A stretch of 35,957 nucleotides of DNA. It comes from a virus. Shown here in pieces: positions 3,512 through 29,400 of the stretch. Position numbers and translations under genes: made by a program. Below the pieces are notes generated by a model. The model saw only the letters and a program-made list of their open reading frames with translations. It did no database searches and was not told the origin of the DNA. The stretch spans positions 1 to 35,957 of IMG/VR virus record IMGVR_UViG_3300009103_000087, one strand, 5' to 3'. The number at the start of each line of letters is the position of its first letter. Within the stretch, counting starts at the first letter, position 1.

Positions 3512-4591
3512 ATGAAGACTTTATGCGCGGCTTTAATCGTCAAGAACGAAAGTAATGTAATATCAAGGTGTTTGAGTAGCTTAAAACCTTATATAGATTA
3601 CTGGCTTGTCTGCGACACCGGCTCTACAGACTCAACCAAAGAGATGGTTCAGTCGGAGCTATCAGAAATCCCGGGAGAACTTCATGAAGTTCCTTGGGTT
3701 AATTTCGGTCACAACAGGAGCGAGCTTTTACGCTTAGCTAAGGGGAAAGCTGATTATTTATTATTGATAGACGCAGATGAAACCTTATCTGTCCACGATC
3801 CTGATTTTAAAAATAAGTTAAATTTAGATTCTTATTTAATAAAATTTGAAGGAGATTTAGAATGGAGGCAAAAGAAGTTAGTTGGTAATCATATTAATTG
3901 GGAATACAAAGGCGTTACTCATGAATATATAACTTCTAATGAGGATAAAAATTTTCAACCGGCAGACTTTATCAGTTTAAATCATTTTTGCGACGGGGCA
4001 AGAAGGCCAGAAAAGTTCGAAGACGATATAAGTCTATTGAGAAAAGGCATAAAAGAAGAGCCTAAAAATTGTAGATATTGGTTTTATTTGGCTCAGACCC
4101 TTTTCGATCTAGGGAGATATAAAAAAGCTTTAAAAGCTTATGATTCGACAATTCAGCTATCGGAATGGGATGAAGAAATATATTATTCTTTATTTAAAAA
4201 AGCCTTATGTTTAAAACATCTTAAGGGCTTTTTTCCTTATGACCAATTCTTTAAAGCTCATCAATTTCGCCCTTCTAGGTTCGAAGCTATCCATGAGATA
4301 ATCAGACATTTTAGGGAGAAGGGTTATTACGACATGGCTTACTCTTTGTGCAAAAAGGAGATAAATAAGCCTGAAAGTCAAGATTTACTATTCATAGATA
4401 AGAGTTTAAACAACTACAAATTAAAAGACGAACTTGCCGTATGCTCATATTGGGTTGGAGAATTCGAAGAAAGCGGCAGATTAAATGAGGAATTGCTGAA
4501 AAACCCAAAAGTGCCAGAATTCGAAAAGAATCGAATAAAAACGAACCAGCAGTTTGCTGAAAATAAAATCAAAGAAAAGTGTAATTACTAG
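3512..4591 (+). CDS. GT2-type glycosyltransferase with C-terminal TPR-like repeats
   Basis: The N-terminal 180 residues form a GT-A glycosyltransferase family 2 domain. The opening LCAALIVKNES is the nucleotide-sugar binding strand. RCLSSLKPYIDYW and CDTGSTDST follow, and the metal-binding DxD is D87-A-D89-E90 within LLLIDADE. Residues about 180-350 are helical repeats of TPR type (YWFYLAQTLFDLGRYKKAL, then ELAVCSYWVGEFEES). This two-part design is well known in bacteria and phages, where the enzyme transfers a sugar to a protein or cell-surface acceptor. Acceptor and sugar cannot be read from the sequence. No Shine-Dalgarno is visible before the ATG; the leader is TATATATAATAATTA. The gene lies within the virion module and is followed after 3 bases by the connector gene, so it is probably co-transcribed. 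Modification of a virion protein or of host surface glycans are both possible. Confidence 0.88.
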   Translation: MKTLCAALIVKNESNVISRCLSSLKPYIDYWLVCDTGSTDSTKEMVQSELSEIPGELHEVPWVNFGHNRSELLRLAKGKADYLLLIDADETLSVHDPDFKNKLNLDSYLIKFEGDLEWRQKKLVGNHINWEYKGVTHEYITSNEDKNFQPADFISLNHFCDGARRPEKFEDDISLLRKGIKEEPKNCRYWFYLAQTLFDLGRYKKALKAYDSTIQLSEWDEEIYYSLFKKALCLKHLKGFFPYDQFFKAHQFRPSRFEAIHEIIRHFREKGYYDMAYSLCKKEINKPESQDLLFIDKSLNNYKLKDELAVCSYWVGEFEESGRLNEELLKNPKVPEFEKNRIKTNQQFAENKIKEKCNY

Positions 4592-10628: not shown

Positions 10629-13600
10629 ATGGCAGAATCCGCATCAGTAAGAGTAAGGGCAGAGTTAGACTCGCGCCCCGCAGAGAAAACCTTGGCCCGC
10701 TTTGTAAAAAAAGCGGAAAGTGTTGATGTAAGGCTGTCTTTAAAAGACAAGAACTTTACTCAGCCTCTCGGAAGAATTACCGGAGCCGCTGACGAGTTCA
10801 ATAAATCTCTCGCTGCTTCGAACGCTCGCGTCGTAGCTTTCGCGGCCTCAGCTGGGTTAATGTATTCCGTCCAAAGAGCTTTAGTCTCTGTTACTAAATC
10901 AGCCATTGAGGTGGAGGCAGCCTTGGCTGATATCAATGTTATCCTTGGAGCTTCCTCTACAAATCTTGCTAAATTTGGAGATCAATTATTTAAAATAGCA
11001 GGGCAAACTGGTCAAGCTTTTCAAACAGTTACCGTGGCCGCTACTGAATTGGCTCGTCAGGGTTTATCGATGGAGGAAACCCTCAGGCGAACTAAAGATG
11101 CCATGATCCTGACTAGATTGGCCGGTATGGATGCGGCTTCAGCCGTAGACGCCTTAACGGCCTCAATCAACTCATTCAACAAAGCGGCTATCACGTCTAC
11201 CGAAATAGTAAACAAAATGGCTACAGTCGATGCGGCCTTTGCGGTAAGTACAAACGATTTAGCGGACGCCTTAAAACGCGTAGGTAGTAGCGCTATTGAC
11301 GCGGGAGTTAGTTTCGACCAGTTGATGGCTATGACTACATCAGTGCAACAGATTACTGCTCGTGGTGGCGCAGTTATCGGTAACTCATTAAAGTCTATCT
11401 TCACCCGCATTCAAAGAACCGAGGTTTTGGATCAACTGCAAATGTTGGGCGTGGCAGTAAGAGACATGAAAGGAAATACTTTACCAGCTATCCAAATCAT
11501 GACCCAATTGGCTAAAACTATAGATAGTTTAAGCTCTGCTCAAAAAGCTAACATTACAGAATTAATGGGTGGCGTCTTCCAAATCAACGTAGTTAAAGCT
11601 GCTCTCGGTGATTTAGGTAAGGAATATTCTATTTATCAAAACGCTTTAAAAGTTTCTACAGACGCAACCGACGCAGCGACTAAAAGAAATGAAAAGTTAA
11701 ATGAAACTCTATCTGCTTTAGTAAATAAAACTTTCCAGAACGTTAAGAAAGCAGGCGCGGAGATCGGCAAATTAACTATCGCTCCAGCCTTGGAGGGGGT
11801 GCTAGATAAAGTAAATAGTGCGCTGGAAAAATTCGACCCGAAAGATTCAGAAAGCACTGGTAATAAAATTGCTCGAGGAATTCTGGAAGGCATAGGTAAC
11901 TTCATTAAGGGACCCGGGTTAATTATTGGTTTAGCTGTCATAGGAAAACTTCTTCAACAATTCGGTAAATTTGCTAGCGACTCATTCAAAGAGTTCTTTA
12001 ATATCAACGAAGCAGCGAAAAAAAGACTCGCTATGGAGAAGTTTATTAATCAAGAACTATCTCACAACGAAGATTTAACACAAGCTATATTATCGGGAGA
12101 ACTGAAAGTTGCTGATGCAGAAAAAATTATATTAAAAGGTTTAGAAGCTCGAGTTCTCCAGCAGGAGAAATTAAATAGGTTGATCAAGGAGGCTTCTTAC
12201 GGGCTGAGCCGTAGAGGGGCTCATGCGGCATTGGTTGATCCGACAGAAGGAACTTACGCAGTTAAGCCTCCTAAAAGGTCTGGTGGCCATGTCCCGAATT
12301 TTTCTCAGATAGATATTCAGGCTTTAGTTAAAGAAGAGTTAACGTCTGCAAGCTATGCAAAATCAGGCACGAAAGCTGTAATTGATACCTTACCCGGTTT
12401 AGGACTCCATGTAAGAAATACCGAAGAGAGCATATCTTACGCTCCGGGTATGAGGTCTCCTTTTATCAATCCCCCAATTGATAGTCCCGAAGGAAGAACT
12501 CATAGAGAAAAATCAATACGGCAGACTGGTATAGACCCTTATCAATTATCATCGAGTTCAGGGCTTCCGGGTTTTGCCAAGGCTAACAAAAAAAAGCCTA
12601 CCCCAAAAATAAAAGACTTAAGATCTAGTAATAAATCAAAAGGCGTACTTCTCCCAGAGTTTGGCAGGAACGACACGAACTTAACGTTTCAATCAAGTCT
12701 AGCTCAAGTCTTTCCTGACACTAAGAGCCTAGAGAGGCAGAAATGGGCAGAAAAGGGCTTTACCGGTTTTAAGATGACTGGTGTAAAAGCTGCTAGATTA
12801 AGAGAAAAATCTTCAGCCTCTTTCGACACCTTGTTAGATTCCAATTTCGACCCCGCGATACAAGGCTTGGGTTCATCTATAGTAGGAACCAATAAGGGTA
12901 AACTTCCTAAAAAGACCACAGGAAAATTTTCTGATTACTTTGATAAAAAAGCTTGGCCTCAAACTAAAGGTCGAATCTTCGAAGCGGCTTTAAATTATGT
13001 TGCAGTTAACATGTCTGCAAAAGCTCAAATGAACAACAGGCTTGCAGAGATTAAAAATCTTACTGGAGGAGAAACTTGGGATTTCCCAGATATAAAAAAT
13101 CAATTGGCGTCTTTATATAAGATTCAGCCGGCGGGGAACTGGGACGCTAAGTCGAACATTGACCAAGGGACTCAAGCCTCTATTATCAAGAAAACTTTGA
13201 ATACTAAATATCAAGGTAAAACTATTCCAAATAAATCTGCCGGATCTATTCCTAACTTCAGCCTAGGCCAAAAAGTTATGGGCATAAATACTATTCAGGC
13301 AAAAAACGCGATAGAAAGATTTAGATCTGGAGAAATTTCGCAAGCGCAAGGATTAGTTACTCAGATTAATTCTTCCAGAAGTTTATCTTCAGCAGAAAAG
13401 AGCACATTGAAAGAGGAGATCAATGCTATTAGACGTCAAAAGAAAAACGCAAAGAATCCTAAAGGCCTAACTATCGATGGGACTAATTTAGGGAGCATGC
13501 TAGTTCCAAGAGTCGGCTCTTCTCAGGGAACCGGTTTAGCTAAGCCTAAAATAGATAAAGACAATACCTTGCTCCGTCAATATCTTTCGAAAAATTACCA

Positions 13601-16600
13601 AGCGAAAACTGGATTAAATTTTGACAAGCTCCCTGAAGAAGCGAAAAAGAAAGTCATAAGCTCAACGAAAGCTTCATTTCCTGTTTTGGCTCCTTCTCGA
13701 GGCAACAACGTCAACATTGTCGATGATGTAGCCACCGCGATAGAAAAAGAAACTAGAAGCTTCGTAGCAAGCATGAAAGGCGGGAGTGAAGCCAAAAAAG
13801 CAAACGTACTAAACAACTTAAGCACTCATCAGAGTAGTATCAGCTCCGCTGCTGGAGCAGTATTTGAGTCAGGAATTAAATCAGCTTTTGATTTAGAAAT
13901 TGGGAAAACAAATGATAGGTTCGATGTCTCGACCTCTGCAGGTCTTAAGGAGGCTTTTCCAATTGAAACCCCTTATGGAGAATTTAAAATAGATGATAAT
14001 AGCCCATTGAGACAAGACATGGCCGCAAAGATTTTGAGGCAAAAAATACAAATGGGTATAGCTTCCGGGGGGCATGTGCCAAACTTCGCATCTCCCCAAT
14101 CTTTGACAACGCCGCCTCCGCCGTACACACGTGAAGAGACCGAGAGATTAATCAAGCTCTGGACCAGCGGCAAAGCAAATCGTTTTGATCCAAACGATTT
14201 GTGGGAATCCATGCCTAGGAACAGAAGAGGCCCCGAGGTAGACCCAATTACGGGGTTACCTGTAAGCCTCAAAAGTCCTACTCACTCAGCCCGTTTGCAA
14301 AGGGGCTATCAGGGGAATCCCGCCTTTGGGTTTGGACTCAGCCCTTGGTCCGGGGGGGCTGTCGAACCAAGAGTAAATCCGAGAACGGGCTTGCCTTATG
14401 CTGGGGGTTTTATTCCTAGTTTTAGCAAAAAAGATACAAACAGAATGAGAGAGTCTAAACAGGCGGGAGTGCCTTATTCTCAGACTTACCTCAGCTTCGT
14501 TGATACGTCGAAATACGCTGGCCCTGTGATAGGGAACAGAAAGGATGAACCAACCTACCAAGCCCTGATAAAAGCCGTTAGAAGCCATCCTGACCCCAAG
14601 AATGCAGGTATGGCAGCGGGTGGATACATCCCGAGTTTTGCTGATGCTGCAGATGCCCCCGCCCCTCTACCGATAAAGAAGATGAATCTAGATGATCTTG
14701 GTTCTGAACCTCTGAAAAGGGTTAAAACGCTAGAGTCTAAATTGAAAGGCTTTGTAGCGAGGTTAGAAAAAATGAACGAAACTACGGGCGGCTTAAGCCC
14801 AGAAGTAAATGAAGCTGTAGAAGAAGCAAAAGGAGCCCTTTCATTTGTTCAGAAGACTGGGAAAAAGTTAGGAGAGCTTGGTGGTAAAATTCAAGAGCTA
14901 GAAGATGAACTGAAGCCGTTGGAAACTGATCTTGACGAAGCTAACCTGTCAATTCAGGGAAGCAATACTCATCTTGAGGGCTTACGCGGCGAGCTTGAAC
15001 AATTTAAAGCCGAGTTGGGTCAAACGGAAGACGGAGTAACTCTCGCGAGAGAAGATTTGAAAGCATCTAATAATGCTATATCAAGCTTACCCAATCTGGA
15101 GGATGGGTATAAAAATTTAAAAACAAAGGAAGAGGAAAAGCTCCAAGAACTAAGAGCCGCAGAACAAGCTGCTGGAAAACAAGAAAGAAAAAATCTGGTT
15201 AATAAGAGAGCTGTGATCCAAGGGGACTTTGACGAAGAGGGAATGCGCCACGGTCAACCTGATAGAGTGGGGTACACAAAAAGCGTTTTAGGAGAATTAG
15301 GAGCAAACGCTGGCCAAGCAGGAGGTAGGAGTTCGATAAAGACCTTAACGGAGGGGGTTGGAGCTAGCAAGACGGGTCAACTAGATTTAAAGGCTCAAGA
15401 TGCTCTTGCGATAACTTTACAAAAGCAAAGAAACGCCGCAATCATGGGGCAACATGACGAAGCACAGAAGATAGAAGATGAATTCAGGCTTACTCATAAA
15501 ATCTCAGAAAAACATACGCATACCCAAGATGCTTTAGATAAAGTTTTTCAGAAAAATTTAGACGCCGGCACAACCATAGGTAACAAGGCCGAGGAAGAAG
15601 CAGCCCTGTGGGATAAAACAACACAAGCCAAGAAGGCTGAGTATGAGACTGCCAAAGACAAGACAAAATTAGCTGAAGGTGAATATAAAGAAGCGAAGAG
15701 GCTGAAGGGCTTGCGCGGTAAAAGAGAAAAAGCTTTAGATAAAGCAACAAGAGCGGAAGAGAAAGCGGCTGATCAGGTAACATTGACTAATCGTAAGATA
15801 TCAGAAGGAAATCAAGAGCGGGATAAGCAAAAACGTAAACAAAAAGATATAAATAATAAAATTGATAAAGTCAACAAGGAGTTGGATGATGAGGTAAAAG
15901 CACAGGCGGCAAAAACAAAAGAAGTTGAGGAAGGCGTAGATAAGGCAAAAAAAGTTAACGATTCCACGGGCAAAGTTGAGAAAGGACTACAAAAAGAAGC
16001 TGAGGGTCGTAAAAATCAAAGCTTCGGAGCAGGATCATACAATCCGTGGTCTCAGCAAGGGAAAAGATATAAATCTCTAAAGGTTGCTGCTGGTGGAGAT
16101 ACGGATGCACTTGCCGCTCTTGGACTGACTCAAGGGCAAGCTCAGGGTGAATTAGCTGGAGCTAAAGAACAAAGACAACAAGCCATACAAGGTAAAGCTA
16201 TGTTGGCTTCAATGGCGTTGCCGATGGTAACGAGCATGGCTGCTCAACATTTTGAAGAAGGTACTGAAGAAGGCGCGCGCGGCAAGGCGGGGGCGGAGGC
16301 AATCGGACAGGCAGGCTCTATGGCTGCTATGGGTGCGATGTTTGGACCTTGGGGTGCAGCTGCAGGTGCCGTTGTCGGAGCAACAATGGGGATTATAGAC
16401 GTTTTAGGCAAGTGGGAAGATAAAACTTATGAATTTAATACCGCTGCGGAAACAGCAGAGGAGAAATTGACTAAATTCAATAACGCTTCACAAACTTATT
16501 TAAAGTCTCTTACTGAATTCAACGAAGTAATGACTTCTACATCTGGTGAAATTGACGGAAATAAAGCTGACAAATTTAGAAAAAATCTTAGCGAAGCTTT

Positions 16601-19600
16601 ACTAAGTATTCCAAGTGAATACAGATTCCAACTTAGCAAGGCTCAAGGTAATGTAGAAAGGATTCAAGAGATCTTTGCAGAAATTCAAGCAGACTTGCAA
16701 AGAGACGCGAATACCAGAAGAGCTCAAGCGGACTTAGCCACAGAGATAGAAGAAAGAATACCTAGAGGCAAAGGGAAGATGTTTAAAGGAAAGGAGAGTG
16801 ATAGCGATCAGAAAAAAGTTTTCGAAATGATCAAGAGTACTTTAGACATGAGTAGGTTTTACGGAGAGGAAGGGGAAAAGCTCGGAGCTAAATTAAGAAA
16901 CGCTTCTAAAAAAATAGCTAGCGATTTTAGTGGCTTTAAGGCCGTTTTAAAAGAGGCTGGCGCAGACGCAAAAACCTTAGAATTGCTAGACGATATGCTT
17001 GAAGGTGGCGCGTCGAATATAACGCTGTTAGGTGATGAATTTGAAAACTTTGGTTCAGACGCCGCTCTCGCTTCTAGAGCAGGAGATAATTTAACCTCTT
17101 CAATACTCGCTTATAGAAGAAGAATGGAGGCGGTCAAAGAAGAACAGGATAGATGGAACTCTATAATGGACGAATCTAAAGAACGAGTTAAAAGACTCGC
17201 GTCTGTATTGCTCGACAGATTAAAATTCATAGACAACATGAGGAATCAGCGGGCCGCCCATGCTAGAGGCATGGCCATGACCGAAATAAAAGGCAGACAA
17301 CAGGTAGCTCAACCGTTTATAGATAATATACAAAAGGTAGACTTAGGAGCTTCGGTTCAACGAGCCGATATGCAAAATAAACAGGTGAACTCTTTAGAAA
17401 AACTTAATAGCTCTATTAAGATAGGTTTAATCGGCACTATAAATGATAAATTTGAAAAACTAACGACTTCTACTGAAAGGATAACTGAAAACGCAAGTGA
17501 AGACCAGAACCTTACAAATAACGAGCTACAAAAACAAAATAAAACTTTAACAGGATACAGAGACGCTTTAATTAAAGCTGTAACGTCAGCTTCAGGTGGC
17601 GGGGACACGTTTCACGAAATAGCCGCCTCAATGAAAGAAATCATAAAGAAAGCAGAAGTAACGGGTTCTGCGCGCGCCGCATTGGAAAGCGATTTATTAG
17701 CCGTCGTAGAAAAAGGAAATCATGACTTGGCGTTAATGAGTGATGCTCACAAGAATGAACTAGAAACACAAAGACTAAGCGCTCAGTACCAAAAAGAGAC
17801 TGCTATAAACACAAAGCAAATGGCCCAATTAGGAACTATTGGAGGAATGATGGCCGGGCCAGACTTTTCAAAGATTAATAAAGTGTTTGAAGATGCAGCT
17901 TTAAGCTCTTTTAGAGCAAACTCTGATCAAGAAGGAAGCAGGAGTTCTCTAAATATTTTAGATTTATTAAGAAATTTTGCTGGAACATCAGGAGCAGCTT
18001 TACCGGCTTCAATGAGAGCAAACGCTGTGGAGGGGGTAAAAAGTAACCTTTCCACTAAAGTAGCTAGAATCCGATCAGGTATGGAAAGTACCGGGCAAAT
18101 GACTCCGGAGCTACAAGAAGAACTTGACCAGTTAAATAATAACCTAGACGAAATAGCAGAAACTAAAGTCGCCGCCCAGCTAAAAGATGTTCCGACTCAC
18201 TTGCAAACCATTGCGGACAAAATTAGCAGTCTAACAGATAAAACCGTAAATGAAGCCTCTATGGAGCAAGCTGTTGCGGCGGCACTAACATCGGTCATGG
18301 GCGGTTCTTCTAAGCATATAGTTGATCCTTTAGTAAGAATAGAATCTATACTTAACTTCCAGAGGGGAATTAACGAAATTAAACAAGTACAGAACAACGT
18401 AGCTGATGCGTTAAAGGCTCAACAACAACTAGCTGGAAATATAGAAACGAGTATGAGTGAAGTGGGAAGTATGGCGATAGACTTGGCTAAGAATGTACCC
18501 GACTCTATTTTAGACGCCACTGTAGGAATGAATATTAAACAAATTCGAGGTCTTATAGATAACGAAGGACAAGGTTTTACGCAAGATGCGGAGGGGCTTG
18601 CTAAACAGAAAGGTGCCCTTCAGAAGTTAATGAACGTGGTGATCAAGTTAGACGGCACAATAACGAGGGGTAAGGTTTTCGATACTGACTGGGGGCTAAA
18701 TTCGCCCGATCTTGTCGCTGAAAGGGAGGACGCTAAAATTATAGGTGGAAATACAAGTGCGATAAGTAGAACGGGGCAAGGGTCGATGCTTCATAAACAG
18801 ATAGTAGATTTAAAGGCGAATCAAGAGAAGTTTGAAAGTGACACGCGTTCAGGTAAGTATGACGAAGCCTTTAATGAGGGGATGAACCTTACAAAAATAT
18901 CAGCTCTGAAACGGCACATGTACGGCGCGGGCCCCATATCGGATGTCATCAGGATTACGAAGGAGCATTTAAGGATGAACAAAGAGTTCGGGTTTAAAGG
19001 GCCGGGAGAGGGACCCCGAGTCGATCATCAGCTTATCGAGAAATTTATTAATAAACTTGTAACATCCTCGGCTTCACTAAAGGGCGATGAGAAACTCGAT
19101 TTCGGTGCCGTATGGGGTTTACTAAGGGAAGCAGATCAGGAATGGGTAAATCAAAAAGGTCCAAGATACGGGATGGCTTTTAATCAGAGTGACGGAGGGA
19201 ACCTCACTAATCAAAAGAAGGTTGTAAATGCTGCGCTGCTGGCTTTAGCTACGTATGCTGAGAATCAGAAGTCTGGAGCTAGCATAGATCACTCTGGGTC
19301 GTGGTCAGATCAATCTGGGCGAAGGAAGACGGTAAGGGAAGAAGTAAGAAATCAAATGAACGCGACCATGCAAGGACTTCAGCAGAGAGCCGATGATCCG
19401 CTACAAACGGGTAGAAAACATCAAGTGCTACCCACTTTCGATCAATTAACGGGAGAGGGGGGGTTGCTAGATAAGCAACTAGTTAAGAACCAAGAAGTGG
19501 AAAGTGCTCAAGCGGAAATGCGCAGATTAATGGCCCAGTTGACAAAACGCTCAACGGCTGAGCAAGTCAATATGATGAGGGACCGTTATGCTGGAGAGAT

Positions 19601-22600
19601 GAGACAGAGAGAAGGTAAAATGGGCGCTATAGTTACTGGACTAGGCATAGGACCGGGCGCAAAGGATGAGGTGATGGACAAATTAAAGAAGGCGAGCTCG
19701 GTTGAAGAGGTGACAAAAATCATAAAAGACGCGGATGGAGAAGTCTCAGATAAACAAAAAGTCACTCTAGAGCAACTTGAAGGCGAAATACAAGAACATA
19801 AAGCTCAGAAAAAAGTCTTAGAAGAAATTACGGCCATTTATAATCGGAAAAAGGCTACCGCTGCCGCCGCCGCGGCTGAAGAAGAAGAAAAACTGAAAGT
19901 AGAAAGAAAAGCTCTAGAAAAGGAAGCAAGCGGTAAGATCGGCCAAGCTCTAGAGCTAAAAACTCCCGAAGCGAAAAGAGCATTCAATAAAGAGATTAGA
20001 AATATGGATTGGAAAAAGCTTTCTGAGCTAAATACATATTTCGATGAACAGGAAGCAGGCGTTTTACACGCACTGTATCCGGGCTCGAAGGACCTAGAGG
20101 AAGCTTTATCTCCTACAGGAGGCTTACTCGGAGAAGGGAGTGCGGCTAAGAGGAAAACAGTCAAAGAGATGATGGCGGAGAGAACAAGGCAAGCCGCAGG
20201 AAGAACTGCGAATTTATTTGGAGATAATATATTTAGTTACGATGCAGAACTTCAAAAGGCTGGCTTTAAGGAAAGATATACAAATCCAATGCTTCCCGGA
20301 CAGAATAATGCTTTTAAAAATGCAAAAATAGATGACCCGTTTCAAATCCGCGCTGGAGCAGAAGTCACTTTCATGGATGACAAGGGTATTATAGAAAGCA
20401 TTAGAGACAGATACGCTACAATTGGAGTTGGCGCTCAAGAGGCTAAAGCCCTTACGCAAGACGTGGCCAAGAAAGTTATTAAGGGGAGATTGGAAGCCTT
20501 CAAACTATTTAAAAATTCAGACTTAAGTTATAGTCAATATATAGTTAAGTTAGCGGGAGCTGAACTGGAAATGTTTAGAACAGATGCTGCATCCGGGAAA
20601 ATAAGCCAAGCAGACTTAGCCGGTAAGTTAAAGGCTCAAGTAGATAAAGAGTTAGGAGAAGGGTTAAATGTCGATCATTTATTCGCTCAGTACTTGCACG
20701 CCAACATGTCCATGAATAAGAAAGACTATGATAATTTAGCTCGCACAGTTGCAGAGTCAATGGCTTCAGGATTGATGGGACATAAAGGCGGTGGAATTCA
20801 TTCTGCTCAATTAGTTCAAGATAAGAGTAAAAAAATCGTAGACCGTGTGAAGGGCCTTGAATTAGGTAAAAGTCAAACAACGGCTTATACTAATGCTCTA
20901 GGAACATTCGAAACATTCCAAATGAATTTTAACCTAGGCTTAGGGGGCAGAGCACAGATGCTTGCTGCTTTAAATACGAAACTTCAATCTGCTCTTCAGA
21001 ACACTAGGGGAACAGATGGCGAGATAGAAAAAGCTTACGATGAATACATAGAAGCTTTAACTACTGGCTTAAGGCCTCAAGATAAAATTATGGAACGTAA
21101 GGGCATAATGGATTCTACGGGTAAGAAGGTGGGGAGAGATCAGATAAAAACTTTAGATTCGAAAGTTGAAAGTATAGTAAACAAATACGAAGGTCAGGCC
21201 GCGGCTGGCCTGATAACAGAGGAAGGCCGGACAACTCTACAAAATGCTGAAAGCATACTTGAGGCTACAAAGCTAGCTAACGAAAAAGACTTAGTCTCTA
21301 CGGCCGCTATGACCACCGCAAGAAAGAATTTTTTAGACGCCTTACTTAAGCATGGATCAGATCAGACGGCGGTTGCTGATGCTTATAGGAATTACGCCGC
21401 GTCTGTGGCCGCTAAATTTAAACCGCAAGATTTAACCGGTATTAGCGCACAAGTTACGGGGCAATTTGGTCAAGAAATGATGGGACCAGACGCAGGCACT
21501 TTTGGCGCAACCTCGCAAGCTATAACCGAGAAGTATAATAAGGCGTTCGGGAAGGGACAAATATCGAAAGCAGCAGTACCAAGATTAGCAAAAGCCGAAG
21601 GGGCGCTCAAAGCTGCTGAAAGTAAAGCTAAAGCAGGAGTCTTAACTGCGGAACAATTAACGGGCGCTTATTTGAAATTTCTAAATACTCTCAATTCTGA
21701 AACTAATAAGCTTACTGAGGTTCAAGCGGCTTATGAGAAATATACAGCGAGCTTAGGTGAGAAAAAGGGCGGGAAGGATTTGATCACAAGCAGAACCAAA
21801 GTCCTTGAGGCTACGAGAAAAGGCGCCACAAGAGGCGGTCAAGCTGGATTAGTTGAGGAAGTCGAGTCAATAACCAAAGCCAATCAGAGACTTTTCAATA
21901 GAGGAAAATTAACCGGTGAAAGCTTAGAAGCTTTAAATAAAGCAGAAAGTCAGTATCATAATGCTCAAACCAATTGGGCAAACGGTTTATCGAGCACTGC
22001 GGCGTTGATGGCTGCAGCATCTAAGAATCTTCAAGCGGCTGTCGCTTCCGGCAACACTGGTAAAATAAAAAAAGCATTAAATGAATACATATCGAAATTA
22101 GATACAGAGCTTAAGCCTCAAGACTATCTTGAAAAAGCTGGTAAATTCATTCAAAAAAATCAAAACAAAGTAGGAAAAGGTAATAGAGAAGACTTCGCTA
22201 AGGATTTGAAAAAAACATCAGACAAGTACGAAAAGTTAGTTGATGAAGGGTTATTGACCGAGCAGGATGGTCAAATTATTTCTCAAGCTTTAGCAGACTT
22301 TGGCGCAGCTCAACAAAACTTCAAAGACGGTTTGATTTCTCAATCGCAACTTTTGAAAAGTGCTGAAAATCAATTATCAAAAATCTCTGGCACAAGCGGA
22401 AGCGCTGAAATCAAAAAAGCCATGAAAGACTATATGAAGGCGTCAACTGAGCCTATCGACGCCTTGTCCACCTTACAAGAGACCGGCAAAGATCTGGGGT
22501 CCTTGGGCGGGGGGATACTGGGTAAAGATCTGGGCAAATTCAAAAAGCAACTTCAAGGCATAAACCAGTCTTACAACGACTCGGTCAATGATGGTACCCT

Positions 22601-24839
22601 TACTAGACAAAACGCTAAGACTTTAAAGAAGGCAGCTAAAGACTTCGCTCTCTCTGAATATGAATTTGGTAAAGAGATGAGAGGTTCAGCGGATCACATT
22701 AGCGCAGCTAAATCTCTGCTTGAGAAGCATTTAAAAGTAGGCAGCAAAAAAACAGAGCAGTCTTTGAAAAAGTATTTAAAAGCTATTGATGGAGCCACGA
22801 CCCCTTTAGATGTAAAGCAGTTTAATATAGGTCAAATCACAAAATTTGCAGAACAATTAACTAAGGCGGAAAGAAGAAAATTCCGCAGAAGCTTAAATGG
22901 AAAAGATTTCAAAGAGATAAGAGCTTCTAGGGAGCGTGGAGAAATATCAAGAAAGGAAGAGAAAGATATATCAAGTAAGCTGGGTGAAATCAAAAAGTTA
23001 GAAGCCGAGGGCGCCCCTCTTGAAGAAATAAGAAAAGCTTGGGACGATTACTACAAATTGAGAGGAAGGGCATATGATTCAGAGACTGAATTTATAAAAG
23101 GTCTGGCAAATTTTTATAGATTGAGCGGTCAAGGCGACATTAAAGAGGTAATGGACACCACTAGAAGGGGTATTGTGAATCAATCTAGAGGAGACTTCTC
23201 TGACCTTGATGAGGCCCAAGGGTTCAATCAGAACTTAATCGACTATCAAAACGAATTAAGGACTATAGCTGCAGAAAGAGGAGCAACCGAAAACGATCTT
23301 AAAGATGCCCTTAAGGCTGAAGCCGAATATCAAAAAATGATTATTGACTTTAACAAAGGCAAGATCCAGTCTAAAGATAGGATAGCTGGTGCTGACGCAG
23401 CACTAAAGGCTAAGAGAGCAGCAGGGAAGGACACGGCGGACGATTTCCTTGACGCTATGCAGGCAAGATTTTCATACGGCAAAAGAGAGGCGATTCAAGC
23501 TATACAAGACACTGTGTTAAATATGATCGATACTTTTGAAAGCGAATTAAATGACGCTTTATTTAACGCTATTTCGGGAGCTAAAGACGCCAAAGAAGCC
23601 TTTAAAGACATGGCTGACGCCATGCTTGATGAAATAACTAGAATGAGTATAGAAGCGACCACTAGGGCTGTTATAGGAAGCTTAGGGATACCGGGTATGG
23701 CAAGGGGTGGATTGGTAACGGGTGGATCAGGAGTTAAAGATGATGTTCCTAGGCTGTTACAGGGGGGAGAATTCGTAATAAAGAAAGATTCTGTGGATAA
23801 GTTTGGACCGGGATTATTTAAAGCTCTAAATGAACAAAATGTTGCCCAGTTTAGTGAGGGGGGGGTTGCTAGCTCTTTAGAGACCCCTTTGCAACGAAGT
23901 ATGAGGAGTAAGGGTATTGGAATAGGGATGGAGAAGGTGGAGCATGTCCCTGATCCTCAAGGAGGACTAAGTAGTATTTCTGACACTAAAGGCGGAGGCT
24001 CTGGATTTACCTTGAGAAACGCTTTTGTTTTCGATGACGATAAAAGGCCTACGGGTGGGGTTCTTGAAGTAGATTCAAGGTTAAGTAGAAGAGCTTTAAT
24101 GGATCCAGATAACCCGAGGAATAAAGTAAGGATGGATAAAGAAAAAGCTTTGGTAGATTATACGGAACAAAGAATGCAAGACTGGGAAGATTATCAAGAG
24201 GCTATGCAAGATTATTATGATAAAAGAAAAAATCGGTGGAGAATGGCTGGGTGGAATATAGCTATGCAATTAGGCTTAAATTATATGAAAGGCGATAGGG
24301 GTGGTGCTAAAAATAAGGGAGAGGGTCGCTTGCATGGAGCATGGGACTGGGTTAATGATAAAATAAATAAAAAGGACAATGAACCTTTCCCGGGTGGACA
24401 ACAGCCGCAAAGAAGAGCTCAAGGAGGCTTTATTCCGTTTGCAAACGGAGGTCTTAGCTCTGATAAAATACCAGCTATGTTAACCGCTGGTGAATATATA
24501 ATGAGTAGAGAGTCCGTAGAGAAATATGGTATCGACACAATGCGTAAGTTAAACCAAGGACAAGTAGGGGGGTATGCTAAAGGAGGTTTAGTAAATGAAG
24601 GAGGTCCGTCTAGTAGTGGAGCGAGTGGTTTATCTGGCTCTGTAGCAGGAACTAATAACGTTAACATTACAGTAAATGTTGATAGCACGGGCAAGGCTGA
24701 TAGTCAGTTATCTTCTCAGGGGAGTGCGGCTTCCGAATCCGAGCAATCTAAGAATATGGCTAGGCAAATAGAAACAGCAGTTGTGGGGGTGTTGTTACAA
24801 CAGCAGAAACAAGGCGGTATGCTTAGAAAAACTAGGTAA
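10629..24839 (+). CDS. Tail tape measure protein, giant (4736 residues)
   Basis: This protein sets tail length and is ejected with the DNA. Residues about 50-370 are the TP901-type tape measure core (AALADINVILGASSTNL, LARQGLSMEETL, TSVQQITARGGAVIGNSLKSI split across the helix). Hydrophobic segments lie near 413-447, 1857-1872 and 1891-1928 (AMFGPWGAAAGAVVGA). Residues 550-1340 are a non-coiled insert with five GGxxP(N/S)F(S/A) motifs and two nuclease-like segments. Long coiled coils fill about 1350-1800 and most of 1950-3300. Residues 3406-4295 are eight tandem repeats of about 115 residues. Near the C-terminus are two copies of the classic tape measure motif GGxxxxxKDDVPRLLxGGEFVI (about 4360 and 4607). 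A strong AAGGAATAAGGA site precedes the ATG. At about 0.15 nm per residue the full length would give a tail near 700 nm. The family call is secure; the role of the insert is unknown. Confidence 0.95.
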   Translation: MAESASVRVRAELDSRPAEKTLARFVKKAESVDVRLSLKDKNFTQPLGRITGAADEFNKSLAASNARVVAFAASAGLMYSVQRALVSVTKSAIEVEAALADINVILGASSTNLAKFGDQLFKIAGQTGQAFQTVTVAATELARQGLSMEETLRRTKDAMILTRLAGMDAASAVDALTASINSFNKAAITSTEIVNKMATVDAAFAVSTNDLADALKRVGSSAIDAGVSFDQLMAMTTSVQQITARGGAVIGNSLKSIFTRIQRTEVLDQLQMLGVAVRDMKGNTLPAIQIMTQLAKTIDSLSSAQKANITELMGGVFQINVVKAALGDLGKEYSIYQNALKVSTDATDAATKRNEKLNETLSALVNKTFQNVKKAGAEIGKLTIAPALEGVLDKVNSALEKFDPKDSESTGNKIARGILEGIGNFIKGPGLIIGLAVIGKLLQQFGKFASDSFKEFFNINEAAKKRLAMEKFINQELSHNEDLTQAILSGELKVADAEKIILKGLEARVLQQEKLNRLIKEASYGLSRRGAHAALVDPTEGTYAVKPPKRSGGHVPNFSQIDIQALVKEELTSASYAKSGTKAVIDTLPGLGLHVRNTEESISYAPGMRSPFINPPIDSPEGRTHREKSIRQTGIDPYQLSSSSGLPGFAKANKKKPTPKIKDLRSSNKSKGVLLPEFGRNDTNLTFQSSLAQVFPDTKSLERQKWAEKGFTGFKMTGVKAARLREKSSASFDTLLDSNFDPAIQGLGSSIVGTNKGKLPKKTTGKFSDYFDKKAWPQTKGRIFEAALNYVAVNMSAKAQMNNRLAEIKNLTGGETWDFPDIKNQLASLYKIQPAGNWDAKSNIDQGTQASIIKKTLNTKYQGKTIPNKSAGSIPNFSLGQKVMGINTIQAKNAIERFRSGEISQAQGLVTQINSSRSLSSAEKSTLKEEINAIRRQKKNAKNPKGLTIDGTNLGSMLVPRVGSSQGTGLAKPKIDKDNTLLRQYLSKNYQAKTGLNFDKLPEEAKKKVISSTKASFPVLAPSRGNNVNIVDDVATAIEKETRSFVASMKGGSEAKKANVLNNLSTHQSSISSAAGAVFESGIKSAFDLEIGKTNDRFDVSTSAGLKEAFPIETPYGEFKIDDNSPLRQDMAAKILRQKIQMGIASGGHVPNFASPQSLTTPPPPYTREETERLIKLWTSGKANRFDPNDLWESMPRNRRGPEVDPITGLPVSLKSPTHSARLQRGYQGNPAFGFGLSPWSGGAVEPRVNPRTGLPYAGGFIPSFSKKDTNRMRESKQAGVPYSQTYLSFVDTSKYAGPVIGNRKDEPTYQALIKAVRSHPDPKNAGMAAGGYIPSFADAADAPAPLPIKKMNLDDLGSEPLKRVKTLESKLKGFVARLEKMNETTGGLSPEVNEAVEEAKGALSFVQKTGKKLGELGGKIQELEDELKPLETDLDEANLSIQGSNTHLEGLRGELEQFKAELGQTEDGVTLAREDLKASNNAISSLPNLEDGYKNLKTKEEEKLQELRAAEQAAGKQERKNLVNKRAVIQGDFDEEGMRHGQPDRVGYTKSVLGELGANAGQAGGRSSIKTLTEGVGASKTGQLDLKAQDALAITLQKQRNAAIMGQHDEAQKIEDEFRLTHKISEKHTHTQDALDKVFQKNLDAGTTIGNKAEEEAALWDKTTQAKKAEYETAKDKTKLAEGEYKEAKRLKGLRGKREKALDKATRAEEKAADQVTLTNRKISEGNQERDKQKRKQKDINNKIDKVNKELDDEVKAQAAKTKEVEEGVDKAKKVNDSTGKVEKGLQKEAEGRKNQSFGAGSYNPWSQQGKRYKSLKVAAGGDTDALAALGLTQGQAQGELAGAKEQRQQAIQGKAMLASMALPMVTSMAAQHFEEGTEEGARGKAGAEAIGQAGSMAAMGAMFGPWGAAAGAVVGATMGIIDVLGKWEDKTYEFNTAAETAEEKLTKFNNASQTYLKSLTEFNEVMTSTSGEIDGNKADKFRKNLSEALLSIPSEYRFQLSKAQGNVERIQEIFAEIQADLQRDANTRRAQADLATEIEERIPRGKGKMFKGKESDSDQKKVFEMIKSTLDMSRFYGEEGEKLGAKLRNASKKIASDFSGFKAVLKEAGADAKTLELLDDMLEGGASNITLLGDEFENFGSDAALASRAGDNLTSSILAYRRRMEAVKEEQDRWNSIMDESKERVKRLASVLLDRLKFIDNMRNQRAAHARGMAMTEIKGRQQVAQPFIDNIQKVDLGASVQRADMQNKQVNSLEKLNSSIKIGLIGTINDKFEKLTTSTERITENASEDQNLTNNELQKQNKTLTGYRDALIKAVTSASGGGDTFHEIAASMKEIIKKAEVTGSARAALESDLLAVVEKGNHDLALMSDAHKNELETQRLSAQYQKETAINTKQMAQLGTIGGMMAGPDFSKINKVFEDAALSSFRANSDQEGSRSSLNILDLLRNFAGTSGAALPASMRANAVEGVKSNLSTKVARIRSGMESTGQMTPELQEELDQLNNNLDEIAETKVAAQLKDVPTHLQTIADKISSLTDKTVNEASMEQAVAAALTSVMGGSSKHIVDPLVRIESILNFQRGINEIKQVQNNVADALKAQQQLAGNIETSMSEVGSMAIDLAKNVPDSILDATVGMNIKQIRGLIDNEGQGFTQDAEGLAKQKGALQKLMNVVIKLDGTITRGKVFDTDWGLNSPDLVAEREDAKIIGGNTSAISRTGQGSMLHKQIVDLKANQEKFESDTRSGKYDEAFNEGMNLTKISALKRHMYGAGPISDVIRITKEHLRMNKEFGFKGPGEGPRVDHQLIEKFINKLVTSSASLKGDEKLDFGAVWGLLREADQEWVNQKGPRYGMAFNQSDGGNLTNQKKVVNAALLALATYAENQKSGASIDHSGSWSDQSGRRKTVREEVRNQMNATMQGLQQRADDPLQTGRKHQVLPTFDQLTGEGGLLDKQLVKNQEVESAQAEMRRLMAQLTKRSTAEQVNMMRDRYAGEMRQREGKMGAIVTGLGIGPGAKDEVMDKLKKASSVEEVTKIIKDADGEVSDKQKVTLEQLEGEIQEHKAQKKVLEEITAIYNRKKATAAAAAAEEEEKLKVERKALEKEASGKIGQALELKTPEAKRAFNKEIRNMDWKKLSELNTYFDEQEAGVLHALYPGSKDLEEALSPTGGLLGEGSAAKRKTVKEMMAERTRQAAGRTANLFGDNIFSYDAELQKAGFKERYTNPMLPGQNNAFKNAKIDDPFQIRAGAEVTFMDDKGIIESIRDRYATIGVGAQEAKALTQDVAKKVIKGRLEAFKLFKNSDLSYSQYIVKLAGAELEMFRTDAASGKISQADLAGKLKAQVDKELGEGLNVDHLFAQYLHANMSMNKKDYDNLARTVAESMASGLMGHKGGGIHSAQLVQDKSKKIVDRVKGLELGKSQTTAYTNALGTFETFQMNFNLGLGGRAQMLAALNTKLQSALQNTRGTDGEIEKAYDEYIEALTTGLRPQDKIMERKGIMDSTGKKVGRDQIKTLDSKVESIVNKYEGQAAAGLITEEGRTTLQNAESILEATKLANEKDLVSTAAMTTARKNFLDALLKHGSDQTAVADAYRNYAASVAAKFKPQDLTGISAQVTGQFGQEMMGPDAGTFGATSQAITEKYNKAFGKGQISKAAVPRLAKAEGALKAAESKAKAGVLTAEQLTGAYLKFLNTLNSETNKLTEVQAAYEKYTASLGEKKGGKDLITSRTKVLEATRKGATRGGQAGLVEEVESITKANQRLFNRGKLTGESLEALNKAESQYHNAQTNWANGLSSTAALMAAASKNLQAAVASGNTGKIKKALNEYISKLDTELKPQDYLEKAGKFIQKNQNKVGKGNREDFAKDLKKTSDKYEKLVDEGLLTEQDGQIISQALADFGAAQQNFKDGLISQSQLLKSAENQLSKISGTSGSAEIKKAMKDYMKASTEPIDALSTLQETGKDLGSLGGGILGKDLGKFKKQLQGINQSYNDSVNDGTLTRQNAKTLKKAAKDFALSEYEFGKEMRGSADHISAAKSLLEKHLKVGSKKTEQSLKKYLKAIDGATTPLDVKQFNIGQITKFAEQLTKAERRKFRRSLNGKDFKEIRASRERGEISRKEEKDISSKLGEIKKLEAEGAPLEEIRKAWDDYYKLRGRAYDSETEFIKGLANFYRLSGQGDIKEVMDTTRRGIVNQSRGDFSDLDEAQGFNQNLIDYQNELRTIAAERGATENDLKDALKAEAEYQKMIIDFNKGKIQSKDRIAGADAALKAKRAAGKDTADDFLDAMQARFSYGKREAIQAIQDTVLNMIDTFESELNDALFNAISGAKDAKEAFKDMADAMLDEITRMSIEATTRAVIGSLGIPGMARGGLVTGGSGVKDDVPRLLQGGEFVIKKDSVDKFGPGLFKALNEQNVAQFSEGGVASSLETPLQRSMRSKGIGIGMEKVEHVPDPQGGLSSISDTKGGGSGFTLRNAFVFDDDKRPTGGVLEVDSRLSRRALMDPDNPRNKVRMDKEKALVDYTEQRMQDWEDYQEAMQDYYDKRKNRWRMAGWNIAMQLGLNYMKGDRGGAKNKGEGRLHGAWDWVNDKINKKDNEPFPGGQQPQRRAQGGFIPFANGGLSSDKIPAMLTAGEYIMSRESVEKYGIDTMRKLNQGQVGGYAKGGLVNEGGPSSSGASGLSGSVAGTNNVNITVNVDSTGKADSQLSSQGSAASESEQSKNMARQIETAVVGVLLQQQKQGGMLRKTR
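12951..13265 (+). other. Nuclease-fold-like segment A within the tape measure
   Basis: Tape-measure residues about 775-878 contain G781-x-x-F-E785, then W-D818-F-P, then W-D839-A-K841, followed by a helix and a GSIPNFS cap. The order E...D...(D/E)xK is that of PD-(D/E)XK nuclease-fold domains. The pattern is short and could arise by chance. What strengthens it is a second, parallel segment about 290 residues downstream. Activity is not shown. Confidence 0.3.
13836..14092 (+). other. Nuclease-fold-like segment B within the tape measure
   Basis: Tape-measure residues about 1070-1154 contain G1076-A-V-F-E1080, then F-D1099-V, then E1118-F-K1120, followed by a helix (RQDMAAKILRQKI) and a GGHVPNFA cap. 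It mirrors segment A in order and in the capping motif, suggesting duplication of one module. The ExK form is the canonical one. Confidence 0.3.
20844..23510 (+). repeat. Eight tandem ~115-residue repeats in the tape measure
   Basis: Aligned anchor residues fall at tape-measure positions 3406, 3519, 3635, 3751, 3866, 3981, 4096 and 4210, steps of 113, 116, 116, 115, 115, 115 and 114. Each unit reads (K)Yxx(6)GxLTxxxxxxLxxAExxxxxAxxxxxxGxLS, then a helix with A..L...L, then a K..L..Y helix, and several units end with PQD. Divergence between units is high at DNA level, so the repeat is visible only in protein. Confidence 0.85.
23706..24557 (+). repeat. Two copies of the C-terminal tape measure GEF/GEY motif
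   Basis: Copy 1 (23706-23835) encodes GGLVTGGSG, DDVPRLLQGGEFVIKKDSV, KFG and LFKALN. Copy 2 (24447-24557) encodes GGLSSDKIPAMLTAGEYIMS, RESVEKYG and MRKLNQ. This GG...VPxxLxxGEFVI...V.KYG...LN signature is widespread at tape measure C-termini and supports the call. Between the copies lies a charged helix of about 200 residues. Confidence 0.85.
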
Positions 24840-26444: not shown

Positions 26445-29400
26445 TTAATACCCAGTCTTATACCAGCCTGACACATCCCCTGTCCAGCCTATTCCGTCAT
26501 AGCTTTGAGAAGATACAAACGCATAGTCAATTCCTAAAGCATCATCGTAACGGCTCCATCCTCCTACCGACCCCCACTGAGCAGTTTTTAGGGCAGTAGT
26601 ATAATCGTTAGTGGTCACTACCCCAAAGAACGCCTCTTCTAAATAAGAGTCATCAATTAGTCGACCTAGGTGCACGTCAAAATATCTTCTATTTTTAATT
26701 AACCCGCCGTAACCTTGACCAAAGCCCGCAGGGTGATGGTTCCATACCCCGGGTATGTTTTCTACAATGTCTCCGGGATCAAGCCAAGTCTGTACTGTCC
26801 CTGTCGAAAAGATATCTGTCCCTTCTCTAGCAAACAGCATAGAGGTTTTAGAGGTCACTGAGCCTGCTGGCCAAGCAGTATACTTACCATTCCAAGCGTT
26901 CAAACCTAGAACTGTATACGATGCCAATCGGCCCGGTAAGTTGGGGGCGGGTAAATTATGTTCATCAAAATAGACTCTGAATCTTCTAAATCCATGTAGC
27001 GGTTTGGTGGCATCTATAGTGGGGTCGTCAGGAAGATAAACTTGTGCTCCTGTTTCATTATAGGAAGGGATGTTGTCGTCATCAATACCACCTGCGTAAC
27101 CTAGCACTCCTGAAACATACGCTGACCCAACATACGGCTCTCCTGAATAAATATCTCTATGCCAAAATTGGGGTACACCGACTCGTAAACCTGTAGCTGT
27201 ATGCGTGGCGCTTACCTGAACTGATTGTCCTCCCCAGTCTCCGTATTTAGCTGAACCAGCATCGTACTGTCCTTGGGTAAACCTGCATGAATAACTGTCA
27301 GAATAGTTAGGGTAATATCTAATCGGATTTTGATATTCGGTTTCATCTTGCCTGCACCCATAATCAAAAAAGCCATTATATCCGTAAAAATTTTCCACGT
27401 CTTTTTTCGATAAGATCCTTACGTTTTGAACCCCGTTCCCTTCCCAGATTCCGTTTACGTTTATCCTTATCCAAGCATGATAAGGGCTCATGCCTTTAGA
27501 GCTCGTAAATTTAGTGGGGTAAATTGGGCAGCCAGTAAAGCCTTGGTAAGGCGTCCTTGCCCCGCCACTAAACCAAGGGGCACTTCTCACGTATTTTGAT
27601 CCTAGAACTGGGGTTTCTCCATCTCTTAAGCCGTAAGCTAGGAAGTCTTCTTCGCTCAGTATATAATTAGAAGTCGACGGATTTCCGACTTGGACTGGGC
27701 TTCCCGTAGTATATAAGCCGGTGTTTGCGTGGGTCGCGCCTAAGGTATCATTGAATTGACTAATGTAAGGTCTAGCAAAACCAACCCAAAGGCCCTCGTT
27801 CCAACCTCCACCCCCTGCCGCTTTCCCAGAAACCGCATAATCAAAAGAGTCGAAAAGGCTCATCGCTACGTAATAAGCTTTATCGAAATTAAAATGATTA
27901 GGAGCGTCATAGGTGTTCGTAGCGCTACTGAAGCCTGCGCCCCAATCGGGTGAAACGATTATCGTATTATTCCTCCTTATAGTCCCGTCGCATGCACAAT
28001 CAGAATATATAGTGGGCTCTGTAAATGGTATTGAAATTATCTTATTTTCTGCCCTTGCGTCTGCGTCATTCGTAATGCCTAGCCTGCTGTATCTGGATAC
28101 TCCTAGTAAGGTGTCAGACCTATCGTTTGCTGGTATTCCGGTTAGTCCGCCTAAGGGGGAACTAGGGGCAGACGTGAAGTCTTCGTAAGCGCTAAACGGT
28201 GTCGCACTAAGATAAACGTAACCCCCTGCTATATCATCTAAGTCGTAACCCATTTGCCTAAAGTTTATATATATTTTCCCGTCGGAAGTAATCATTTGTT
28301 CTGTGCATAAGTCTTCATCTCCTTGGCATAAACCCGGCCTAGCTCCTTGGTTTATAGAATCTCTAGGAGTCATCCAAAAACCAGAGGGTCTTACGTTATT
28401 AACTTCCGCTATATCATAACCTGACTGAGGCGGATTAAATGCGTCTGTTGAGAACCCTCCATTTATTCTGTCTCTAGCAACCACAGCAATATCGTAATGG
28501 CGAAACGGTCCGTTAGGTAACGCATAGTTTTGTTCAAAAGGAAACTGGAACAAGTTCCGACTACCAGTGTAAGGGCCCCCTATAATATTACCTGTCAAAG
28601 CGTTACTACCCGGTAGGGGTTCCCTTATTGTCACAACGTACTCTAGCTCGATAGGCGGAGTTTGACCTAAAAAGCTAGCGTCCCAAGTAAAGGCTTGATC
28701 TTTACTCTTAGGTTTTATCACAGCTCCTTTGCTTATCGTATTGTTGTTAAAGTCGTCTGTCGTCAACCTTAACGAATGAACCGACACATCTCTTATCGGA
28801 TTGTGCCCTGCTACGCTTATAGCTGGGGATTGAGCATTCCCGTCAGAAGGAGCTCCCGCTCCGTTAAAAGCGTAAGCTAGAAAATAATGGCTAACGTTAG
28901 CCGCAGGTATATGAAAATTAGTAATTTTTGTATTTGAGGTTGCCGCATTGAGTGTCGCTATTTTGGTTTGAGGTCTAGGTATAGGAGGCACTGTATTTAC
29001 TATGAAGTCTCCGGTCTCTGGATCGGTAGATGTAGTATCCCAAGCCGCTCCCGTTTTTAAATAAATATTATAGTGAGAAGTTGAGCCTAGCTGAATAACT
29101 CCCCCCGCTCCAGTAGGCACATCAACCGCATAATCTATTTTTTTACTGTTTACGGTTAGGTCCCCCAAGGCTCCGGTGATTTTTAAAGGGGCCGGAGGGG
29201 CTGATGCAGAACCTACGACATTAGGGTCTCTTGGAGTAAACACAATTCCAGACTCAATAGCCGCAAATTTACCAGTGTAGTGTTTGCTGGCTGTAATTTC
29301 GTGCTGTAATCCGTCGGTTTCTTTAACATCTAGCACGTTATAGTACTCTGGCTCATATCGTCTATCATCAATACTCCATGAAACCCCCGTAGCTCTATCG

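Follow-up and report, generated by a model that had tools for sequence, protein, structure and literature searches.

Gene context and layout of the tape measure protein

The window, meaning the whole 35,957-nt stretch of viral DNA that was analysed (IMG/VR record IMGVR_UViG_3300009103_000087), contains a very long open reading frame (ORF) encoding a tape measure protein (TMP), together with other tail genes. The main features are as follows:

10629..24839, + strand: TMP, 4736 aa (ORF; Pfam PhageMin_Tail, 3.4e-27; PHROG tail length tape measure, 3.2e-47)
11004..11564, + strand: conserved TMP N-terminal domain, PhageMin_Tail, residues 126–312 (Pfam)
12282..12302, + strand: boundary motif GGHVPNF, residues 552–558 (pattern; boundary role seen in relatives)
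12555..12575, + strand: degenerate boundary SSGLPGF, residues 643–649, ahead of module A (matches SSGFIPNF of the related locus L004 by eye)
13239..13259, + strand: boundary motif AGSIPNF, residues 871–877 (pattern)
14067..14087, + strand: boundary motif GGHVPNF, residues 1147–1153 (pattern)
14403..14423, + strand: boundary motif GGFIPSF, residues 1259–1265, closing a short segment of unassigned kind (pattern)
14619..14639, + strand: boundary motif GGYIPSF, residues 1331–1337, the last by pattern (pattern)
26445..31556, − strand: central tail fibre J-like gene (PHROG central tail fiber J, 4.1e-144)

The PhageMin_Tail-type N-terminus, the great length and the adjoining tail genes identify the protein as a tape measure. 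The genes beside the J-like gene matched a tail assembly protein (4.2e-28) and minor tail proteins (1.2e-57 and 7.1e-25) in PHROG, and with the J-like gene they point to a lambda-type tail. TMPs normally set tail length and aid DNA entry into the cell, and are usually regarded as rulers and DNA conduits.

Related proteins were collected with two pattern scans for the boundary peptide, whose consensus is GFIPNFA; among the matches listed, these gave 203 ORFs (200 distinct, some of them close relatives), and the frequencies below hold for that sample. A profile of the TMP N-terminal region found this domain in all 101 motif-bearing ORFs, among the matches listed, whose N-terminus lay in the locus, showing that the arrays occur in real TMPs. 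When two large TMPs were used as queries, the N-terminal region of the TMP was the only part matched in phage records (best 20 of 165 and best 20 of 132).

Modules A and B and their family

Two nuclease-like modules, A and B, lie between the boundary peptides, and a single open frame runs through both inside the TMP ORF, with no interrupting stop or frame change:

12624..13259, + strand: nuclease-like module A, residues 666–877 (profile from other phages, 53 bits, 6.5e-17; motif-masked profile, 7.2e-9)
12969..12983, + strand: GRIFE of A, residues 781–785, with E785 (motif listing)
13080..13082, + strand: D818 of A (motif listing)
13143..13151, + strand: D839-A-K841, the (D/E)xK motif of A (motif listing)
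13473..14087, + strand: nuclease-like module B, residues 949–1153 (profile from other phages, 68 bits, 1.7e-21; motif-masked profile, 1.1e-13)
13854..13868, + strand: GAVFE of B, residues 1076–1080, with E1080, within a predicted helix (motif listing; AlphaFold2)
13923..13925, + strand: D1099 of B (motif listing; family conservation)
13980..13988, + strand: E1118-F-K1120, the (D/E)xK motif of B, at a predicted strand (motif listing; AlphaFold2)

A sequence-only reading of this DNA had described A and B as duplicated nuclease-fold modules, each with GxxFE, an acidic D, (D/E)xK and a closing GGxxPNF cap. The pattern is real, both modules being found by a profile of 60 modules from other phages (4 of 64 units had been dropped by eye beforehand). 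Elsewhere in the TMP this profile scored at most 1.7 bits, giving no third site, and neither 20 shuffles nor the reversed protein gave a single-domain score above 2.4 bits. The profile includes the boundary peptide, and the motif residues are present in it by choice of members. A second profile was built without A and B; it omitted the boundary peptide, and its G, F, E, D, D/E and K columns were masked. It matched A with 31 bits and B with 47 bits, which bears out the assertion that the motif did not arise by chance. In this masked test, 67 matches lay outside the training set, with D aligned in 65, D/E in 64 and K in 64; among the 59 that were less than 50% identical to every training member, the counts were 57, 56 and 56.

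Conservation across the family was strict. Of 137 aligned members, 132 had E and 5 had D at the GxxFE glutamate position, and 116 had K and 21 had Q at a second lysine position; the acidic D was invariant (137/137), and both the D/E and the K of (D/E)xK were present in 138/138. Median pairwise identity within the family was 17.5%, so the residues that had been put forward for a conservation check are retained despite extreme divergence. The residues E, D and (D/E)xK occur in this order and conserved throughout the family, A and B included. Of the other alignments used, A2 left out 11 of the 117 modules, shorter ones of 42 to 151 residues, and A3 consisted of 85 hand-picked rows. A and B are members of a single, large module family from uncultured phages whose sequences diverge strongly.

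Within the modules, D818/D839/K841 and D1099/E1118/K1120 had been named correctly, and the D-to-(D/E) spacing, given as 19–21, measured 21 in A and 19 in B. The E-to-D spacing was unequal (33 in A, 19 in B), and a further K follows 14 residues past the (D/E)xK lysine (K855 in A, K1134 in B). The TMP contains three copies of GxxFE, of which the last, at 2135, falls outside the motif array. The modules start 115–127 residues ahead of GxxFE, which places roughly half of A before the start previously assigned to it. The GGxxPNF ending held for B (GGHVPNF) and failed for A, which reads AGSIPNF and lacks the GG; its interpretation as a cap belonging to the nuclease fold was abandoned, as the same peptide also ends cassettes of other kinds. 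A and B are homologous, but calling them "duplicated" misleads: they are 14% identical and fall in different clades, and a recent local tandem duplication was rejected.

At least one module was present in 138 of the 203 ORFs among the matches listed; many of the other 65 were fragments. The module accounted for 123 of the 441 distinct complete segments among these matches and is the commonest larger cassette kind there. The modules of L011, L030 and L059 belonged to the 60-module training set, were excluded from the masked test, and were not recovered by a profile trained without them (plain HMM, 0.005 to 0.22); they may therefore form a separate set, which HHalign linked to the module profile (83%, 8.7e-6). 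By eye, the residue layout of this set is more standard.

Enzymes of the PD-(D/E)XK type place E within a helix, follow it with D and then with (D/E)xK at a strand, and have K/Q on the next helix. The family resembles them in its E helix, D, (D/E)xK at a predicted strand and helix with K/Q, and differs in the lack of a fold or profile match, in the lack of a predicted strand between the helix and D, and in its extra N-terminal strands. AlphaFold2 models of B (residues 943–1154; pLDDT 80.5, pTM 0.78) and of a compact relative (pLDDT 76.7) were alpha/beta, both at moderate confidence. Both put GxxFE on a helix and (D/E)xK at a strand that leads into a helix, and neither had a strand separating the GxxFE helix from D. 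Foldseek searches against PDB returned no significant match for B (best E 0.65) or the relative (1.1), nor did VIA fold searches (best Z 2.8 and 4.2, respectively), where absence of a fold from the lists is not evidence against that fold; viral structure models, searched with B only, gave a best E of 0.61. The proposed check by structure prediction thus yielded, for these two proteins, alpha/beta models but no significant PDB match. Of the PD-(D/E)XK assignment, the residue order and conservation stood, while the predicted structures of B and the relative do not confirm the fold.

Profile searches with 106 members gave no convincing family in Pfam or PHROG (stray matches in 1–2 members, best 0.0022 and 0.001) and no family match in PADLOC. 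HHalign comparison of the module with Mrr and Hjc gave 0.3% and 0.2%, at low power (2.1% for the known pair Mrr–Hjc, 1.0% for the unrelated pair Mrr–TMP); the Mrr set comprised 30 loci, of which 1 had no ORF and 3 were dropped, and VRR_NUC relatives, present in 3 of 81 genomes, were too few for use. Hemopexin-type lectins gave a weak PDB profile match, at 5e-4 over the whole sequence and 0.04 over a 50-residue stretch, which was tentatively ascribed to a short GxxFE-like repeat.

The two models without a fold match, their missing strand between helix and D and the lack of a convincing family match would also suit a different catalytic or metal-binding function, with E, D and (D/E)xK serving another reaction on an undescribed fold. 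We regard this as an appreciable but lesser possibility, because the order of the residues, their placement on secondary structure and the following K/Q fit the PD-(D/E)XK superfamily, and because the L011, L030 and L059 set, with its more standard layout by eye, joins the module profile by HHalign, though not by plain HMM.

Exchange of whole cassettes at the boundary peptides

Comparison of near-identical TMPs at the DNA level revealed that the ends of matching stretches inside the arrays lay within 8 residues of a boundary motif in 162 of 171 cases, against 15% expected. In all four near-identical pairs inspected, DNA identity of 92–96% stopped at a motif and resumed at the next one at 89–96%, and the modules in between had 14–28% of residues in common. 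Such stops and restarts at the boundary peptides demonstrate that whole cassettes have been exchanged in relatives of this phage. Interchange of such dissimilar modules would be unexpected of a part matched to the genome end, and we therefore consider it very unlikely that A and B process the phage's own genome ends or help packaging, even though their nuclease-like residues sit in a virion protein and packaging in T4 requires the DNase activity of gp4, a virion-associated protein with a nuclease fold (PMC7824862).

Module identity was higher among very close TMPs (median 42% in the 8 pairs of TMPs at 90–98%); it rises with TMP closeness, so exchange is not the sole process. Close TMP pairs with one member lacking a module were also listed, in a list affected by removal of identical segments and by fragments, and no conclusion rests on that list.

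Codon identity between motif copies of one ORF, compared with expectation, was 0.36 against 0.33 for G, 0.53 against 0.42 for P and 0.66 against 0.68 for N. The boundary peptide is thus kept mainly at the protein level and probably serves a separate function, which we can only guess to be that of a processing, docking or unfolding site.

Frequent and exact exchange would also be expected of selfish, homing-like nuclease cassettes that spread themselves by cleaving TMP genes with a different cassette or with none, at no benefit to infection. Homing endonucleases are known to reside in TMP genes; in ICP1, intron-borne HNH nucleases interrupt the TMP gene (PMC10448857). ICP1 thus likewise has nucleases within the TMP locus, but those are intron-borne, spliced out and not part of the protein, whereas the present modules lie in frame within one uninterrupted ORF. 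As segments of other kinds close with the same motif, and as the motif is conserved mainly as a peptide with codon identity only slightly above expectation, we judge homing to be an improbable explanation.

Pfam, run on 140 of the 148 other long segments, assigned cassettes in related TMPs to SNase (1.9e-9), GNAT (7.1e-8) and HATPase (3.7e-5), and AAA-like cassettes also occur; related TMPs therefore carry several domain kinds. By-eye impressions of HAD, kinase, ART and ParB-like cassettes were without Pfam support and were set aside. These enzyme matches, and the retention of D, D/E and K despite a median identity of 17.5%, which a decoy would not need, make it quite unlikely that the variable segments merely aid escape from host factors recognising the TMP, with no enzymatic role. 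What speaks for such decoys is that diverse siphovirus TMPs are probably recognised by SNIPE, a nuclease of the host, and that mutations in the TMP let phage Bas14 escape strengthened SNIPE variants, as reported in PMC13190303.

Distribution and proposed function

With A or B alone as query, the sole match was the same sequence in a 142-kb contig. Searches of 50,697 phage records by tblastn gave no match to A and B together (E 0.01), nor to a single module, the first unit or the DEP unit (each at E 1), and one module searched in genome_contigs gave no relative. The motif pattern found 27 stretches in genome_contigs, 14 of them with a motif-bearing ORF; 12 of these were unrelated by eye, and the relatives of the same kind were L235 and L247, both MAG contigs, with a module detected by profile in L247 only.

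On balance, we think it probable that the TMP is a carrier of swappable cargo enzymes and that A and B are metal-dependent nucleases delivered with the DNA. The conserved N-terminal domain is followed by an array of cassettes, each closed by a GFIPNFA-type peptide, and recombination with joints at these peptides replaces entire cassettes. In the alpha/beta modules A and B, the near-invariant set of E, D, (D/E)xK and K/Q would most likely form a metal site cutting nucleic acid in the manner of PD-(D/E)XK nucleases. For A and B, we infer nuclease activity, delivery and target alike: riding in the virion within the TMP, they would reach the cell alongside the DNA and may act early on nucleic acid of the host, a plasmid or a rival phage, a conflict that would drive fast cassette exchange. 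If TMPs do bring exchangeable enzymes into the cell, one short motif could reveal in metagenomes a large, so far hidden repertoire of early-infection effectors, and what enters the cell with siphophage DNA would become testable cassette by cassette. The cassettes are likewise candidates for new nuclease folds.

More tentatively, the TMP of a widespread siphophage lineage, with no cultured member in the collection searched, may be an injected modular weapon rack, in which nucleases of undescribed fold and other enzymes stand as serial cassettes between peptide copies and are traded whole like bacterial toxin tips.

No description of swappable TMP cassettes was found in the literature searched. 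Mycobacteriophage and other TMPs contain inserted peptidoglycan-hydrolase motifs; they likewise have an enzymatic domain inside the TMP, but the enzyme kinds differ, and the swappable array is a feature of the present TMPs. Polyvalent proteins of phages and conjugative elements, as described in PMC5512222 (Iyer et al. 2017), whose main text does not contain the term "tape measure", similarly unite multiple effector domains in a single large protein that is proposed to enter together with the DNA; here, in contrast, the carrier is the TMP, and the cassettes are bounded by one peptide and swapped whole. Polymorphic toxins (PMC3482391) likewise pair a constant carrier with exchangeable domains that are acquired through recombination, but their exchangeable domains are C-terminal, whereas the cassettes here are internal and serial.

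Modules in the tape measure protein

The searched stretches of the 35,957-base window were 100% identical to a 142-kb viral contig. The tape measure protein (TMP) gene and two further features of the window are as follows.

10629-24839: TMP ORF of 4736 residues, with a PhageMin_Tail domain at residues 126-312
3512-4591: glycosyltransferase family 2 domain with TPR-like repeats, about 6 kb 5' of the TMP gene
14088-14639: two short segments of unassigned kind following segment B, with ends GGFIPSF and GGYIPSF

Downstream of the TMP gene, the opposite strand encodes a J-like tail fibre protein, a tail assembly protein and two minor tail proteins, so the tail of this phage is probably of the lambda type. 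A motif check on the TMP located both patterns described in the sequence-only reading, with the named residues correct, in segments A (residues 666-877) and B (residues 949-1153). Both segments belong to an alpha/beta family, here called the module, that carries GxxFE, D and (D/E)xK; the segments, or cassettes, end in a short boundary motif with the consensus GFIPNFA.

The TMPs of four other contigs showed 54-57% identity to the window TMP in the N-terminal part. Three of these contigs encode nearly the same protein (54 and 103 differences in 2226 residues), so the four provide two independent comparisons. In both, the TMP carried one module at the corresponding place, with GSIFE, PFDF, RADAK and SGFIPNF in one and GQIFE, NFDL, YADLK and NGFIPNF in the other.

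DNA patterns for the peptides GFIPNFA and GYIPNFA each yielded at least 120 viral-contig stretches, together giving at least 203 motif-bearing ORFs in 203 loci and at least 441 distinct complete inter-motif segments. Cassettes of the module type sit in TMPs: among the matches listed, a TMP N-terminal profile matched 139 of the 203 motif-bearing ORFs, including every one of the 101 whose N-terminus lay in the locus with 400 residues or more ahead of the first motif. L247, a 77-kb contig binned in a Flavobacteriales MAG, also encoded a TMP with this array, in which a module was recognised (1.3e-24); the binning is a weak hint of the host.

Two modules within one TMP are uncommon, with 7 of the 203 ORFs having two and 131 having one among the matches listed, some ORFs being fragments. 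The proposal that A and B arose by duplication was not borne out for a recent event: they matched at 14% of aligned positions, where the family median is 17.5%. When 126 modules were placed in a tree with FastTree, the two grouped separately, A joining a module of L115 (support 0.83) inside a 33-member clade (0.75), whereas B joined modules of L033 and L129 (0.83).

Cassette exchange and other cargo

Cassettes are exchanged at the boundary motif. Among the matches listed, comparison of the 84 loci having both the TMP N-terminal part and a module revealed a constant median module identity of 17-19% as N-terminal identity rose from 30% to 80%, the median being 23% in the 40 pairs whose N-terminal identity was 80-90% and reaching 42% in the 8 pairs at 90-98%. 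Four pairs of loci (L163/L053, L218/L142, L061/L092 and L089/L213) had modules only 14-28% identical despite N-terminal identities of 96-100%; their DNA matched at 92-96% up to one motif, broke off, and restarted at the next (89-96%). Inside the arrays, 162 of 171 DNA match ends fell 8 residues or less from the centre of a motif, versus 15% for random places (91 pairs, among the matches listed), as did 93 of 99 when each ORF and boundary was counted once (among the matches listed); BLAST extension into the conserved motif may be part of this sharpness. Motif copies within an ORF used the same codons only slightly above expectation (differences of -0.02 to +0.11 at seven positions), so selection is mainly on the motif peptide. 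In the open-access literature searched, with subscription papers mostly outside it and bioRxiv not covered as such, no description of cassettes of this kind in TMPs was found and the string FIPNFA was absent.

Among the matches listed, the 441 complete segments comprised 123 modules, 148 others of at least 100 residues and 170 shorter ones, the short classes being assigned by crude pattern; by the same classing, NPxGLxVxNxxDEP occurred in many of the 170. This short unit recurs in many arrays of the related ORFs. A Pfam scan at 1e-3 of 140 long other segments (among the matches listed) assigned four to GNAT, two to HATPase, one to SNase and single members to AAA types, and left nearly all the rest without a family. 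By eye, four cassettes (L223:1967-2392, L034:3867-4442, L047:7924-8550 and L206:2604-3287) resemble HAD phosphatase (YDWDGT), protein kinase and ADP-ribosyltransferase, looks for which a Pfam match was absent.

Conservation of the motif residues

In a first set of 114 ORFs, GxxFE lay 50-260 residues ahead of a motif in 82 of 113 cases, this zone making up 27% of residues (among the matches listed). A profile from 60 outside modules recovered both A and B and, once the boundary peptide was cut from it, matched 134 segments at 1e-3 (among the matches listed). In an alignment of 138 members, including A, B and the two relatives, the counts among the matches listed were G 137/137, E 132/137 with D at that site in 5/137, D 137/137, D or E 138/138, and K 138/138.

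Because the training modules carried these residues by choice, the profile test was repeated with the six motif columns masked and a three-member outlier set excluded. Of 127 matches, 67 lay outside training, and 59 of these were less than 50% identical to every training member (among the matches listed).

Motif residues in masked-profile matches (among the matches listed)
67 outside training: G 63, E or D 64, D 65, D or E 64, K 64
59 divergent: G 55, E or D 56, D 57, D or E 56, K 56

All four matches counted as (D/E)xK exceptions had such a motif nearby, missed by the alignment (DAK, DAK, ESK and DFK). By both the alignment and the masked test, the motif residues of A and B are kept across homologous modules.

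Another kind of cassette, in four segments, had DAH or DAY in place of DxK. A related-looking cassette, present in segments of L025, L100, L108 and L111, reads GRxFE, (V/I)DF and then FADA(H/Y)xGxGH, with H or Y replacing the module K, perhaps an altered active site.

Predicted fold and probable function

The AlphaFold2 model of B (106 alignment rows; pLDDT 80.5, pTM 0.78) showed strands 13-20, 24-29 and 51-59 followed by helices, the GxxFE helix at 126-144, the D immediately ahead of a two-residue bridge and then a short helix, and a strand at 174-177 bearing the E of ExK, with helix 183-203 after it. A compact relative from L163 (85 rows; pLDDT 76.7, pTM 0.70) was modelled with a similar element order. 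The PD-(D/E)XK fold proposed from sequence remains a candidate: a PDB structure search gave a significant match for neither model, and comparison of the B model with viral structure models gave a best E of 0.61. The module probably works like a PD-(D/E)XK nuclease, and we do not file it as a member of that superfamily.

Delivery of TMP-borne domains into the cell is plausible. Whole-cassette replacement combined with strict retention of the putative catalytic residues would be expected of an arms-race enzyme, and the candidate targets are host DNA, plasmid DNA, rival DNA and RNA.

The three-member outlier set (L011:295-828, L030:12282-12836 and L059:4702-5232), for which HHalign alone gave a link to the module profile, carries GxxFE, D and GE(A/V)K plus a C-terminal strand-like stretch (LVVP, LFVP or LYVP), and by eye this set looks nearer the standard PD-(D/E)XK layout.
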